DNA of 64,000 bases from Ypsolopha sequella (taxonomy: Eukaryota; Arthropoda; Insecta; Lepidoptera; Ypsolophidae): assembly GCA_934047225.1 (NCBI GenBank), contig OW203983.1, positions 41,226,310 through 41,290,309 on the forward strand, read 5' to 3'. Below the pieces are notes generated by a model. That model was not told the DNA's origin. It saw only the letters and a list, made by a program, of their open reading frames with translations, and did not search any database. Every line of letters begins with the position of its first letter. Position 1 is the first letter of the stretch. A program made the position numbers and the translations under genes. Positions 22,681 through 63,356 of this stretch are shown here, piece after piece.

Positions 22681-23110
22681 CCGACATTTGACATTTTTTG
22701 ACATTTGACATGGTTTATTGACATTTTAGTGAGGCGGGTCGTTGTATGGGATTTTGTATGGGAGTTTGGAAAAATTTCGCGAGTGAGTAGGCGAGCCCGA
22801 AGGGCGAGCCTACGAACGAGCACGAACGAGCCGGCGAGCGCGAAGCGCGAGCGGGCGAAGTTCGTAGTGATGTACCTGGGTACTAGGGATGGGAAAATTG
22901 ACATTTTTGACATTACTGACAGAACGAGCACGCGAGCGCGAAGCGCGAGCGGGCGCAGTTCCTAGGGATGTCCCCGGTCACTAGGGATGGGAAAAATTGT
23001 CATTTTTGACATTATTGACAGAAAGTTCGCCGGAACAAGCCCGCGAGCGCGAAGCGCGAGCGGGCGCAGTTCCTAGGGATGTCCCTGGTCACTAGGGATG
23101 GGAATTTTTT
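22681..23110. repeat. GC-rich tandem repeat with GA-step hairpins
   Basis: Three units of roughly 100-115 bp (starting near 22830, 22930 and 23033) share cgcgagcgcgaagcgcgagc, 'gttcctagggatgtccc' and 'actagggatggga', with a TTGACATTTTTGACATT block between. Each unit carries a hairpin built on GCGC-GAA-GCGC with flanking GA dinucleotides and outer complementary words. A related hairpin stands alone at 22779-22821. Confidence 0.85.
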
Positions 23111-23760
23111 TTTTTCTAAAATTTGTTACAAAAAAATTTTGTTTTGGCCATATCTTCGGAACGGAAGGTGGTACATCCCTAGGGGTCGGACCATAGGGTG
23201 ACAAAAAAGTTTTTTTTTTTTTTCAAATGTCAAAACTTTAACGGCCCGTATCTCCGAGACGGCTTGAGTTAGACCCATGTTGATGGGTGTCTAAGAAAAG
23301 GTCTCGCCGAGATCTAGCCCCCCCCCCGGTGTCAAAACTTTAACGGCCCGTATCTCCCAAACGGCTGGAGCTAGACCCATGTTCATGGTACTCTAAGAAA
23401 AGGGCTCGACGAGATCTTTCTGAAAATAAAATAAAAAAAAAAAAAGTCGAAAAAAAAAATTTTTTTTTTGACAAAACTTTGATCGGCCATATCTCCCGAA
23501 CCGTAAGTCCTAGCGAGTTGCGGTTTCGACTTTAGTGATCTGTCCGCCGAGCGCTACGCGACCTCTTTAAAAAAATTGACATTTGACAGAATTTGACATT
23601 TTTTTGACAGGTCCAAAAAAGTGCTCCGATTCGCTTGAAACTCGGTATCAAGGGGCAGGTGGGGTCGGTGATTACGAATCCACTGTCAAATTTGACACTT
23701 TTTGACAACCGACAGGGATTTTGACACTTTTTCGAAAAAAAAATGGATTGGACATTTTAT
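23111..23760. repeat. diverged tandem repeat with 'ggcccgtatctcc'
   Basis: At least three diverged units share aaaactttaacggcccgtat and ctcc. Two of them (from about 23225 and 23332) also share tagacccatgtt and 'tctaagaaaag'. A further unit near 23470 reads ggccatatctcccgaacc. Poly-T or poly-A tracts separate units. Non-coding. Confidence 0.75.
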
Positions 23761-23770
23761 CGGATCTAAT

Positions 23771-24545
23771 GGCGAGGCCGAAGGCCGAGCCTTCAAGTGT
23801 CTTTCTAGCGAGGCCGAAAAACGAGCATGTGAGGACGGAGAACGCGCCAGCGAGGCCGAAGGCCGAGCTGGCAGCGTTCGGAGTCCGAATATGCGCGTTT
23901 TTCGGCCGAGCACGATACCGCGGCTACCAGAGTCATATCTGATGTCATTCTAGGGAGGCCAAACAGTACCAAGCGGCGAGGCCGAAGGCCGAACCGAGTA
24001 TAAGCGAGGCCGATGAACGAACATACGAGGCCGAAGGCCGAGTATGTGAGTTCATGAGGCCGAGTTCACATTACCCCGGGGGCATTACAATACTGTTTCA
24101 CTTGGACATATCTCCCAAACCTTTGAGATTGGGCTTAGCGGGATTCGACAACGTTGAATTGGTTCAAGCACATTTCGACCGTTGACAGTTTGGACACTTG
24201 ACAGATGTCAGAGGAAACATTTCGCGTAAAGGATCCCAGCGAGGCCGAAGGCCGAGCCTACAAGTGTCTTCATAGCGAGGCCGAAAAACGAGCATGTGAA
24301 GACGGAGAACGCGCCAGTGAGGCCGAAGGCCGAACCGAGTATAAGCGAGGCCGATGAACGAACATACGAGGCCGAAGGCCGAGTATGTGAGTTCATGAGG
24401 CCGAGTTCACTTAACCCCGGGGGCAGTACAAGACTGTTTCATTTGGACCTATCTCAAAAACGTTTGAGTTTGGGCTTAGCGGGATTCAACTCCGTTGAAA
24501 GTTTGTTCAAGCACATTTCGACCGTTAAGATTTTGGACTTTTAAC
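23771..24545. repeat. tandem duplication rich in GAGGCCGAAGGCCGA hairpins
   Basis: Two units start at about 23771 and 24238 (both gcgaggccgaaggccgagcc followed by aagtgtct). Seven copies of the GAGGCCGAAGGCCGA core occur at about 23774, 23852, 23977, 24027, 24240, 24318 and 24368. The second unit lacks about 132 bp between two cores of the first. Outer words flanking the cores are complementary (GCCAGC/GCTGGC, ACATAC/GTATGT). Short open frames here are artefacts of the GC-rich repeat. Confidence 0.88.
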
Positions 24546-25954
24546 AACTGTCAGAGTACACAATAGCAAAATATTTGTCCACTTCAATTGAATCAAAGTT
24601 ACCACACGTATTTCAACGCGCTATTACGCTTACGACGATGACAATTTTGAAAACTGATCATGACCGATGACTTTTTTCCCACCCGATCATGGCCGATGAC
24701 ATTTCGTGATACAATTGACTTCTGCCCATTACTTGAATGTCGTCAGATAATTTGTTGCAACTCAATTTCAAACGTGTTTTTTACTCGATACCTTGTCCTG
24801 TCACGTTAACGAAAAAGTTACAACAACAACTAAATGCAACAACAAACAACAATGAATAGAGTATAACAAAGAACAATTACAACTCACGCGGGCTGCCTGC
24901 AGCCCGCGCACCACGCAAAACACTAGTCTATTAAATATAAACACATTAAAGGTATCTTTGAACGAGTGAGCGAAGCGAACGAAGTTTTCCGAGTCTACTT
25001 GAAGAATCCGGCGTATGTACGAATGTTTATCGATAACTCGAGTATTATTGATTGGAACCATGGACGACTTGTATTTATTCGTCCATGTTGGAATGTCATA
25101 AAATTTGGTTGGCGAGTAAATGAGACAAAACTATTATTTAAGGGGATCGAAAATACAAACAGAAATAAAATGTCAGCTTTCGGATGATTTTGTTGCAATA
25201 ATTAGGTTACGTATAGCCATAAAAAAAATACATGTTTTTGGTTGAACTTTAAGGTATTCATTTTCCACAAACCACGTTAATCGATTCATATTTGTACTGT
25301 CAATGAATTTTTTTGTAACCCTCTATTGCACACTTTTTATCGATTTTGTTTCAGGTATCGCTTTCGCGATTTTGTTGGTTTTTTTTAAATAAAATTAGTG
25401 TGAATGATATCTATTCATTTTCCAAATACCACGTTATTCGGGTCAAAAAAAGCACCCCCTTTTTCCAAAAATACGTAAATCCACTGATGCAGTCAGCGGC
25501 AGCAAGATATTGTCAGTCTACGCCTAGCGTTGGCGCCCGTAAGACGTGGAACCTGTGCCCTTTTTTGCAAGCTATAAATATCTCCCAAAACTACTTCAAA
25601 ACACATTGAAATTAATTTTATAAAGTAATATTTCGAGGAGCATCATATTCCTGCCGTTAAAAACTCAACAAAATATGCGTATGAGTGATTTAGCTACATC
25701 GTGCCATAGTCATAACAACAAAACTGAATGAATTTGGAATGAATTCATACTTTTATGCGGGAAAATAATATATGTTACTCTAAAAGAATAATTTTGTAAT
25801 CGTTATTGAAACCCAAATTAATTTACTTATACTTACTGAGATCTGTAACAAAGGTCAATGACCTTTTCGTGAAATTACCCTGTAGTATTGGCTCACCATT
25901 TCAGGTCCAAATAAGTGAAGTTTTTTGCAAATTTATATAGGTACACTTACTTGG
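24546..25954. other. no recognised gene; GA-step hairpin at 24961-24986
   Basis: A 73-codon frame at 24966-25187 (FRVYLKNPAYVRMFIDNSSI...) looks slightly protein-like but matches nothing I know and starts inside a hairpin. A frame at 25346-25609 has no recognisable motif. Confidence 0.35.
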
Positions 25955-36309: not shown

Positions 36310-36483
36310 TCCAAGACCAGAGACGCAGCAAAATTATCTAACAACGCCAATGCGATTATATATATTATTTATTTATCTGTTACCTATAGAAGAGCGGATC
36401 CTCCCATTACAGGTATATCTCCCTTAAAAGGAGACTCCAACCACTGTCTACGAAATTGTATGTCTAAGTTTGGTAATAAATAA

Positions 36484-36855
36484 CTTTTTATGCATCAAAA
36501 CCGAACAAAAAGTCGATTATTTTGCCCTAGGGCTTTATTATTATTTTTTTTTTTATTTATTTACAATGGTTGGCTAACTTGTAGACTTTCCTGTGTACCA
36601 TAGATGTTATACTTTTTTTTCCACTGTTTAACGGCTCTGGATACAGTCCTTTTGAGCCAATTATAATTTAAAGTTCACAAGATTATATTTGTTTTCATTT
36701 CCTCACACTATGCATTGAAAAACGTAGTATGATACACGGGCGTATAAGCAATAAATTACTCGGTTACGTTTAAAACACTCGCTATGCTCGTGTTTTAAAT
36801 CGTCCTCGTAATTTATTCCTTTGCGCCCTTGTAGCATAAACTACTATTGTATTTA
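36484..36855 (+). repeat. family C repeat, copy 1
   Basis: A 370-bp repeat with copies at 41998-42366 (same orientation) and 38258-38602 (inverted). Landmarks are tttttatgcatcaaaaccga, agtcgattattttgccctag, 'acggctctggatacagtcct' and 'gtagtatgatacacgggcgt'. It contains a GA-step hairpin at 36769-36799. Confidence 0.85.
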
Positions 36856-38257: not shown

Positions 38258-38602
38258 TATAGTAGTTTATGCTACTAGGGCGAAAAGGAATACATTACGA
38301 GGACGATTTACCGAGTAATTTATTGCTCTTACGCCTGTGTATCATACTACGTTTTTCAATGCATAAAGTGAGGAAATAAAACAAATATAATCTTGTGAAC
38401 TTTAAATTATTATTGGCTCAAAAGGACTGTATCCAGAGCCGTTAAACAGTGGAAAAAAAAAGTATAACATTTATGGTACACAGGAAAGGTTGCAGGTTAA
38501 CCAACTTCTCATAAATAAATATAAAAAAAAATAAAGCCCTAGGGCAAAATAATCGACTTTTTGTTCGGCTTTTATGCATAAAAAGTGGGCGATTACGAGC
38601 AC
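38258..38602 (-). repeat. family C repeat, copy 2 (inverted), hairpin missing
   Basis: Matches copies 1 and 3 throughout, but the ~33 bp containing the GA-step hairpin is absent between gaggacgattt and accgag. Confidence 0.82.
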
Positions 38603-41997: not shown

Positions 41998-42366
41998 CCA
42001 CTTTTTATGCATCAAAACCGAACAGAAAGTCGATTATTTTGCCCTAGGGCTTTATTATTATTTTTTTTTTATTTATTTACAATGGTTGGCTAACCTGCAG
42101 CCTTTCCTGTGTACCATAGACGTTATACTTTTTTTACACCGTTTAACGGCTATGGATACAGTCCTTTTGAGCCAATTATAATTTAAAGTTCACAAGATTA
42201 TATTTGTTTTCATTTCCTCACACTATGCATTGAAAAATGTAGTATGATACACGGGCGTAAAAGCAATAAATTCCTCGGTTGCTTTTAAAACACTCGCTAC
42301 GCTCGTGTTTTAAATCGTCCTCGTAGTTTATTCCTTTGCGCCCTAGTAGCATAAACTACTATTATT
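41998..42366 (+). repeat. family C repeat, copy 3
   Basis: Same landmarks as 36484-36855, with the GA-step hairpin intact at 42284-42314. Confidence 0.85.
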
Positions 42367-63215: not shown

Positions 63216-63356
63216 AGTATATTTCGTGACGAGAATAAAATGGCGGATTTTCTTACACGAGGAATGAAGCTAGTTTCGACGTGAGCCGAAGGCGAACGTC
63301 GAAAGCTTACATTCCGAGGGTAAGAAAACCCATTTTTACTCGTTGCGAACTATACT
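63216..63356. repeat. 141-bp palindrome with GA-step hairpin core
   Basis: AGTATA at 63216 pairs with TATACT at 63351. Further in, TTTTCTTAC pairs with GTAAGAAAA, GGAATG with CATTCC, AAGC with GCTT, TTTCGACGT (63274) with ACGTCGAAA (63296) and GCC with GGC. The triloop GAA is at 63288-63290. GA dinucleotides sit on both arms between several of these steps. Confidence 0.88.

Follow-up and report, generated by a model that had tools for sequence, protein, structure and literature searches.

The window, by which we mean the whole 64-kb stretch of Ypsolopha sequella DNA that was analysed, contains four open reading frames that were compared with Pfam; the one at 9255-10310 matches Integrase_H2C2 and rve and thus encodes a retroelement integrase, and the other three gave no Pfam match. 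Between 22779 and 24407, ten hairpins (the last one ends at 24396) fit the rule word-GA-word-[GNA]-word'-GA-word', in which the primed words are complementary to the unprimed ones. They lie in a GC-richer part of the window, where GC content is 0.40-0.47 across the three kilobases from 22001. The sequence-only reading had counted at least ten hairpins under one rule, and a strict scan (words of at least 2 bp, GA facing GA, a GNA loop, at least 6 bp in total) indeed found ten in 22779-24396, out of 11 on the plus strand of the 64 kb and one on the minus strand (Table 1).

Table 1. Hairpins and related features, by position in the window or by locus label for sites in other genomes.
Position or locus	Strand	Feature
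22779-22821	+	Hairpin with three GA/GA steps, GC-GA-GT-GA-GTAGGC-GA-GCCC-[GAA]-GGGC-GA-GCCTAC-GA-AC-GA-GC
22830-22856	+	Array A copy, core GC-GA-GCGC-[GAA], one uncompensated outer-word mismatch
22928-22954	+	Array A copy, core CGC-GA-GCGC-[GAA], one uncompensated outer-word mismatch
23039-23065	+	Array A copy whose outer word is intact, GCCCGC-GA-GCGC-[GAA]-GCGC-GA-GCGGGC
23771-23791	+	Hairpin GGC-GA-GGCC-[GAA]-GGCC-GA-GCC
23808-23911	+	Long imperfect hairpin; tip (23846-23872) GCCAGC-GA-GGCC-[GAA]-GGCC-GA-GCTGGC
24013-24055	+	Hairpin ATGAAC-GA-ACATAC-GA-GGCC-[GAA]-GGCC-GA-GTATGT-GA-GTTCAT
24239-24257	+	Short copy GC-GA-GGCC-[GAA]-GGCC-GA-GC, within the 467-bp duplication
24317-24335	+	Short copy GT-GA-GGCC-[GAA]-GGCC-GA-AC, at the junction of the 126-bp deletion
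24354-24396	+	Duplicate of the 24013-24055 hairpin, identical
24964-24982	+	19-mer GA-GT-GA-GC-[GAA]-GC-GA-AC-GA, the seed common to viral and prokaryotic DNA
36769-36799	-	Hairpin TTTAAAACAC-GA-GC-[ATA]-GC-GA-GTGTTTTAAA in the ~366-bp repeat; loop ATA, not GNA
42284-42314	-	Same hairpin with loop GTA, TTTAAAACAC-GA-GC-[GTA]-GC-GA-GTGTTTTAAA, second repeat copy
63274-63304	+	Hairpin TTTCGACGT-GA-GCC-[GAA]-GGC-GA-ACGTCGAAA, nested in the imperfect hairpin 63248-63328
L119		Longer viral example with other words, AAAGAT-GA-AT-GA-GT-GA-GC-[GAA]-GC-GA-AC-GA-AT-GA-ATCTTT
L233		Longer viral example with other words, ATCCT-GA-CCCT-GA-GCC-[GAA]-GGC-GA-AGGG-GA-AGGAT
L407, L415, L420, L423, L433, L443, L456, L486, L510, L517		Actinobacterial loci with the 19-mer after AT

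The array region is built from tandem duplications. Array A (22824-23104) is made of a tandem unit with spacings of 98 and 111 bp, whose copies are the hairpins at 22830, 22928 and 23039, and array B is a 467-bp duplication (23772 and 24239), the second copy of which lacks 126 bp between two identical GGCCGAAGGCCGA cores; the copy pairs 23771/24239 and 23846/24317 lie inside it. Once copies are merged, the ten hairpins collapse to about five independent designs, and the arrays are probably the product of hairpins of this kind being duplicated within repetitive DNA. The largest structure (23808-23911), absent from the list of the sequence-only reading, combines three GA/GA steps, one GGA/GGA step and an A/G mismatch under a GAA loop. 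Two other repeats lie close by: 23228-23417 holds two tandem copies, 88% identical, of a 102-bp unit which contain ACGGCCCGTATCTCC, and just past the array, at 24889-24908, there is a GC-rich inverted repeat, GCGGGCTGC-CT-GCAGCCCGC, without GA step.

Farther along the window, a repeat family of about 366 bp has three copies (36483-36848, 42000-42363 and 38259-38586), two of which carry the hairpin; the copy at 38259-38586 lies in the opposite orientation and is without a 32-nt stretch which corresponds to the inner hairpin. One copy of this family has two uncompensated mismatches in the outer stem, in an alignment read by eye, and the array copies at 22830 and 22928 each have a single mutated outer base with no compensating change. 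Old copies in the window therefore decay, and any maintenance of the shape would act on active copies. A 20-base probe from the 36-42 kb repeat matched one viral contig, in an apparently ordinary gene region. As for the independence of the word changes, it holds for the five or so designs of the array, for two more in other parts of the window and for the other words of the viral and prokaryotic sites described below, and fails for the ten array hairpins taken one by one, which are not independent.

A lenient scan of the window found 10 hairpins at score 8 against none in each of 15 dinucleotide shuffles; with scores from 5 to 7, it found 12, and no shuffle had more than one. A second count took every stem with a single 2x2 mismatch step, whatever the step, once only, allowing an inner word of 2-8 bp and a loop of 3-6 bases of any sequence, outer words made of a single repeated letter having been dropped beforehand. 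For outer words of at least 6 bp, GA/GA was the step in 8 of the 15 window stems and other steps occurred once at most, against 5 GA/GA stems in 100 dinucleotide shuffles combined and never more than one per shuffle, which places GA/GA above its shuffled expectation and bears out the non-randomness claimed for the grammar. For outer words of at least 5 bp, the figures were 9 of 34 stems in the window and 4 in 20 shuffles. Three of the 8 GA/GA stems lie outside the array, where they make up 3 of 10 stems.

The array 27-mers (n = 11, 10 of them distinct, all related copies) change on both sides in 8 of 10 pairs. For these 11 related sequences the covariation score was 0.467 against 0.168 after shuffling, with 0 of 500 shuffles reaching the observed value, and it dropped to 0.047 or less once the partner was slid; among these related copies the paired words covary while GA and the loop stay fixed, as had been proposed. 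Folded as DNA, 23808-23911 reaches -41.5 kcal/mol (z about -8.8) and the imperfect hairpin at 63248-63328 has a z of -7.4. The smaller hairpins fold less remarkably: z was -1.8 for 22775-22825 (8 of 200 shuffles as good), -2.2 for 23035-23070 (matched by 4 of 200) and -2.3 for the minus strand of 42250-42340 (matched by 2 of 200).

The observation is real and extends beyond the genome of the window. Public viral contigs were scanned by freeing one part of the grammar at a time, every seed containing some grammar, and the viral counts pool all loci fetched by several scans. The 19-mer alone occurs in 48 exact stretches of viral contigs. In a complete scan with the step left free (GAGT-NN-GCGAAGC-NN-ACGA), GA/GA occupied 35 of the 84 flank-distinct sites and the next best step 3, with AG/AG and TC/TC at 0 of 84 each. 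These zeros bear on the proposal that one arm is copied from the other. The sequence-only reading had kept hairpin-templated copying as an option, and it could proceed by snap-back or template switching, polymerase theta being one candidate enzyme. GNA mini-hairpins would be ideal self-priming ends, and two base pairs at the end of a stem-loop suffice for extension by polymerase theta (PMC11292364, in the part of that source drawn on here). Simple self-templated copying is nevertheless refuted, because it writes TC opposite GA and cannot make GA opposite GA, and we regard any form of it as highly improbable.

With the triloop left free, GNA made up 60 of the 86 triloops among the viral matches listed (GAA 33, GTA 12, GGA 10, GCA 5), the next being AAA with 4; the 19-mer scan, pooled with this one, biases the count towards GAA, and the fairer figure that omits it is 26 of 51 among the same matches. 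Four-base loops were GNNA in 24 of 34 cases and GNRA in only 9 of 34 among the viral matches listed. In viral GAGTGAGC-N5-GCGAACGA sites, the loops CTCAA (5) and CTTAA (3) account for half of the 16 distinct cases listed. Hirao in 1994 reportedly described extraordinarily stable DNA mini-hairpins of the d(GCGAAGC) type, and Nakano in 2002 is said to have given d(cGNNAg) as a DNA loop rule. GNA itself is a known DNA loop, with GAA stabler than GTA according to the part of PMC6479982 used here. A dimeric protein could also read CGAG...CGAGC half-sites in double-stranded DNA, and the letters around the core are indeed conserved; such a duplex site is very unlikely, since words and word lengths vary freely, GA is direct and not mirrored on the two arms and the length of the GNA loop is fixed, all of which fits folding better.

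When the words were left free, 117 of 141 pairs among the viral matches listed were complementary against 27.2 expected, the commonest in that set being GC/GC (40), GT/AC (35), GG/CC (12), AG/CT (10), AC/GT (8), AT/AT (5) and CC/GG (4). The prominence of GC/GC (40 of 141) is what would be expected from a neutral, low-complexity origin, in which tandem repeats of GCGA or GGCCGA type pair automatically, because GC, GCGC and GGCC are self-complementary, and are then multiplied by duplications; the window array, made of duplications and with decaying old copies, agrees with it. This origin does not account for words that are not self-complementary and pair too, such as GTAGGC/GCCTAC, ACATAC/GTATGT and TTTCGACGT/ACGTCGAAA, nor for the viral pairs listed that remain after removal of GC/GC and GT/AC, 42 of 66 of which are complementary against a mean of 7.3 and a maximum of 18 in 1000 shuffles. 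The covariation of haloarchaeal words and the retention of the steps, both described below, also speak against it, and we consider it quite improbable and already disfavoured. When the fetched loci are counted without any seed, GA/GA shows only a modest excess, as the step in 13 of 596 stems from viruses and 8 of 189 from prokaryotes.

Other viral sites repeat the layout of the window: one locus (L211) packs four hairpins with different words inside about 130 bases and resembles the array. GA-step matches lie between uvsY and gene 24 in Escherichia phage RB16 (L654) and in a divergent intergenic region of the N4-like Pseudomonas phage phCDa (Schitoviridae, L655). By short-query BLAST, 13 of 13 Microviridae-type records (nine confirmed by record, the other four by name only) match on the plus strand, at up to E = 10 and with the full grammar not confirmed for each match; a fourteenth match, the small unannotated phage record MT837473, is also on the plus strand. 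That the hairpin has its natural home in microviruses was discarded as a general rule, since no excess was seen in 80 loci selected by their capsid gene: they contain 3 GA-step hairpins on the plus and 0 on the minus strand against 1-3 and 0-2 in five shuffles, and at 5 bp the numbers are 8 and 0 against 3-7 and 0-5. The same 80 loci (L656-L735) contain 45 perfect GNA triloop hairpins with a stem of at least 6 on the plus strand and 9 on the minus strand, an asymmetry which base composition may explain.

In the GTDB genomes, the 19-mer was found in at least 119 stretches, and the record titles among the matches listed include Halobacteria, Pseudomonas, Actinobacteria, Bacteroidales, Acidobacteria, Chloroflexi and others. 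After merging of similar flanks, 82 sites were obtained among the matches listed; the next outward word pairs over at least 2 bases in 26 of them and not at all in 43. Eleven of these 82 listed sites, most of them actinobacterial by title, have AT directly before the 19-mer and may be candidate protein starts (M-S-E-R-S-E-R) and not hairpins. At three loci (L516, L520 and L525) the 19-mer lies within a longer bacterial palindrome, CATTTTGAGCGGAGTGAGCGAAGCGAACGAAGTCGAAAAATC and its kin, similar in appearance to a widespread bacterial repeat. A haloarchaeal family (Halorubrum, Halobellus and a Halobacteriales genome) was obtained from 12 rows by removing L411, a loose match without the 19-mer, and L517, which is a Streptomyces. 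Its two-base outer words pair in 8 of 10 cases (GG/CC 3, AG/CT 2, GC/GC 2, GT/AC 1), and the two exceptions, GG/CT and GT/GC, are one G-T wobble away; the flanks CCGCA and GAGTGAGCGAAGCGAACGA are either conserved or fixed by the search. This recurrence of the grammar in unrelated genomes with other words is as a constraint on structure predicts.

The retention of the hairpins between homologues was measured on the 263 GA/GA-GNA hairpins of the fetched loci, 55 of which had usable homologues, giving 205 pairs with a flank divergence of 0.177. The GA steps of viral and haloarchaeal loci are retained: 271 of 314 (86%) were kept against a neutral expectation of 0.46, with 111 of 121 in the viral and 160 of 193 in the prokaryotic group. 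Control hairpins with other 2x2 steps (1500 of 4710 were queried) behaved neutrally, since 958 of 2654 steps (36%) were kept for an expectation of 0.38, and those with GNA loops kept 298 of 752 (expectation 0.40). Double changes in the stems of GA-step hairpins left the pair intact in 68 of 89 cases (0.76); the controls gave 0.42 and 0.47, and chance would give 0.33. A change on one side broke 107 pairs, and 25 turned into G-T. The 61 compensations in prokaryotes were all in haloarchaeal loci, which share ancestry, and double changes in viral homologues (7 compensated, 8 broken) did no better than controls. The viral hairpin is therefore conserved and not covarying, and covariation proper rests on the haloarchaea, where the words do change together. 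The structure-based constraint proposed from the sequence-only reading thus stands as far as words change together and the grammar recurs with other words in unrelated genomes, and is not seen in the leftover copies of the window, which decay uncompensated; that reading was largely right about the structure, and the data suggest that genomes can keep a shape rather than one sequence.

We next consider which molecule folds. By crude ORF calls, 88 of 152 hairpins in viruses and 11 of 44 in prokaryotes lie between genes, where 16% and 8% of random positions fall, respectively; 13 of the viral hairpins lie between convergent and 12 between divergent genes. Selection could act on RNA, the hairpin with tandem sheared G-A pairs in the transcribed GA strand being then the form that matters. 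RNA parameters place GA/GA level with three other steps at the top of 144 and 2.1 kcal/mol ahead of TC/TC, the plus strand on which all 13 Microviridae-type records carry GA is the mRNA sense (it is also the virion strand), and among viral hairpins that have at least two steps, 9 are sense and 4 antisense. The overall counts, however, have no mRNA-sense bias: between co-directional genes the viral GA strand is sense in 27 and antisense in 30 cases (16 and 24 for viral loci of at least 7 kb), and inside ORFs it is sense in 28 and antisense in 36, by the same crude calls. Further against RNA, 15 of the 24 GNNA tetraloops among the matches listed violate GNRA, AG/AG is as stable as GA/GA in the RNA model and yet has none of the 84 step-free sites, and the window has 0 Rfam matches at gathering thresholds. 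Intrinsic terminators were ruled out as well, with TTTT within 10 nt downstream in just 7 of 152 viral hairpins and AAAA upstream in 7. Local GC skew indicates no preference for a replication strand (80 positive, 72 negative). The GNNA tetraloops, the known GNA DNA loop and the balance of sense and antisense were counted for DNA, which we infer, rather than RNA, to be the folded molecule; selection at the RNA level is an unlikely alternative.

Energy models separate the two DNA strands only slightly. The computed DNA energies of the GA and TC strands are -16.6 and -14.9 for 24000-24070 and -41.5 and -37.6 for 23805-23918, both small differences, and for 63236-63332 the TC strand has a z of -8.4 against -7.4 for the GA strand. 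GA/GA is only 14th of 144 steps in the DNA energy model, and GNA triloops are rewarded neither by the DNA nor by the RNA parameters. Tandem GA favours the context Y-GA-R, which fits 528 of 640 GA arms, a count biased by the seeds.

Our preferred reading, to which we give a probability of roughly 45%, is that these are one-sided DNA hairpins in which a sheared G-A stack and a GNA turn make a shape that is kept for strand-specific reading. The small energy differences between the strands, the low rank of GA/GA in the DNA model, its good rank in the RNA model, the sense majority of multi-step viral hairpins, the even GC skew, the microvirus result, the viral double changes, the decay of window copies and the modest excess without seeds all count against it. 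On the GA strand, sheared G-A pairs would form in tandem where 5'-GA-3' steps oppose each other, and with a compact GNA turn as its loop the strand would make a continuous stack; the complementary strand, with TC against TC and a TNC loop, should fold less well and would be truly the weaker of the two. In single-stranded or supercoiled DNA, a firm hairpin would form on one strand only and the locus would thereby avoid a perfect palindrome. If it is the shape that is kept, words may change provided that both arms change, GA and the ends of the loop being fixed. The hairpin could then serve as a strand-specific mark for a protein or for the replication machinery, by analogy with the N4 virion RNA polymerase and the telomere proteins of Streptomyces, which read single sheared-GA loops. 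Should tandem sheared G-A pairs be used by selection as a third pairing rule in the stems of DNA hairpins, one strand could fold firmly and the other less so, and this would provide a strand-specific signal without the instability of perfect palindromes. A broader claim, which we hold to be doubtful, is that of a cross-domain DNA shape code: unrelated phage, bacterial, archaeal and eukaryote-like genomes would maintain hairpins that form on one strand only, as strand-specific marks of single-stranded DNA, with GA/GA steps, GNA or GNNA loops and freely covarying words, and these would be invisible to sequence searches and to surveys of perfect inverted repeats. A hairpin survey of 118,019 genomes, in the part of its report drawn on here, counted only mismatch-free arms (PMC13155455) and would therefore miss GA-step hairpins. 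The grammar gives a cheap descriptor with built-in controls, in which the step, the loop or the words are swapped.

No name for the class of GA-step/GNA hairpins was found in the open-access literature searched, in line with the sequence-only reading; the closest known systems share some of its parts. In the human (TGGAA)n satellite, sheared G-A pairs form a GGA/GGA zipper in repetitive DNA; a GGA/GGA step is also present in 23808-23911, but the satellite is a simple repeat without covarying words. The d(GCGAAGC)/GNA mini-hairpins have the same loop and closing C-G pair as the window hairpins (PMC6479982, in part), but they are a structural motif and no genomic element class, and are without GA/GA steps. 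Helitron 3' ends, as outlined in the part of PMC4344730 drawn on here, have a hairpin shortly before a CTRR end, with a TC start and A/T flanks. Prokaryotic REP palindromes of the GTAG and CGTC families are likewise short and imperfect, their stems vary by complementary changes and one family has unpaired GA residues in the stem; it is a GTAG or CGTC tag at the terminus that defines them, many of their loops are TY or CMA and the portion of PMC3733652 used here gives no GNA rule. The telomeres of Streptomyces carry packed palindromes on a single strand, with GCA loops, closure by sheared G-A and resistance to single-strand nuclease; they differ in being linear chromosome ends with a terminal protein, and GA/GA steps in the stem go unmentioned in the consulted part of PMC4513846. 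The end-of-replicon position of the Streptomyces type was not seen here, the array being internal to the 64-kb window (22.8-24.4 kb). The promoter hairpins of the N4 virion RNA polymerase are unlike ours in that the polymerase contacts specific bases and that the pages of PMC4496689 drawn on here describe no internal GA/GA steps. They are short DNA hairpins with a three-base loop closed by a sheared G:A pair, where the window hairpins have GNA loops by sequence and a predicted sheared pairing, and their stem bases are likewise free to vary while pairing is kept. In the N4 promoters, according to the same pages, supercoiling extrudes the hairpin and SSB melts the non-template one, while the template one stays folded (PMC4496689).
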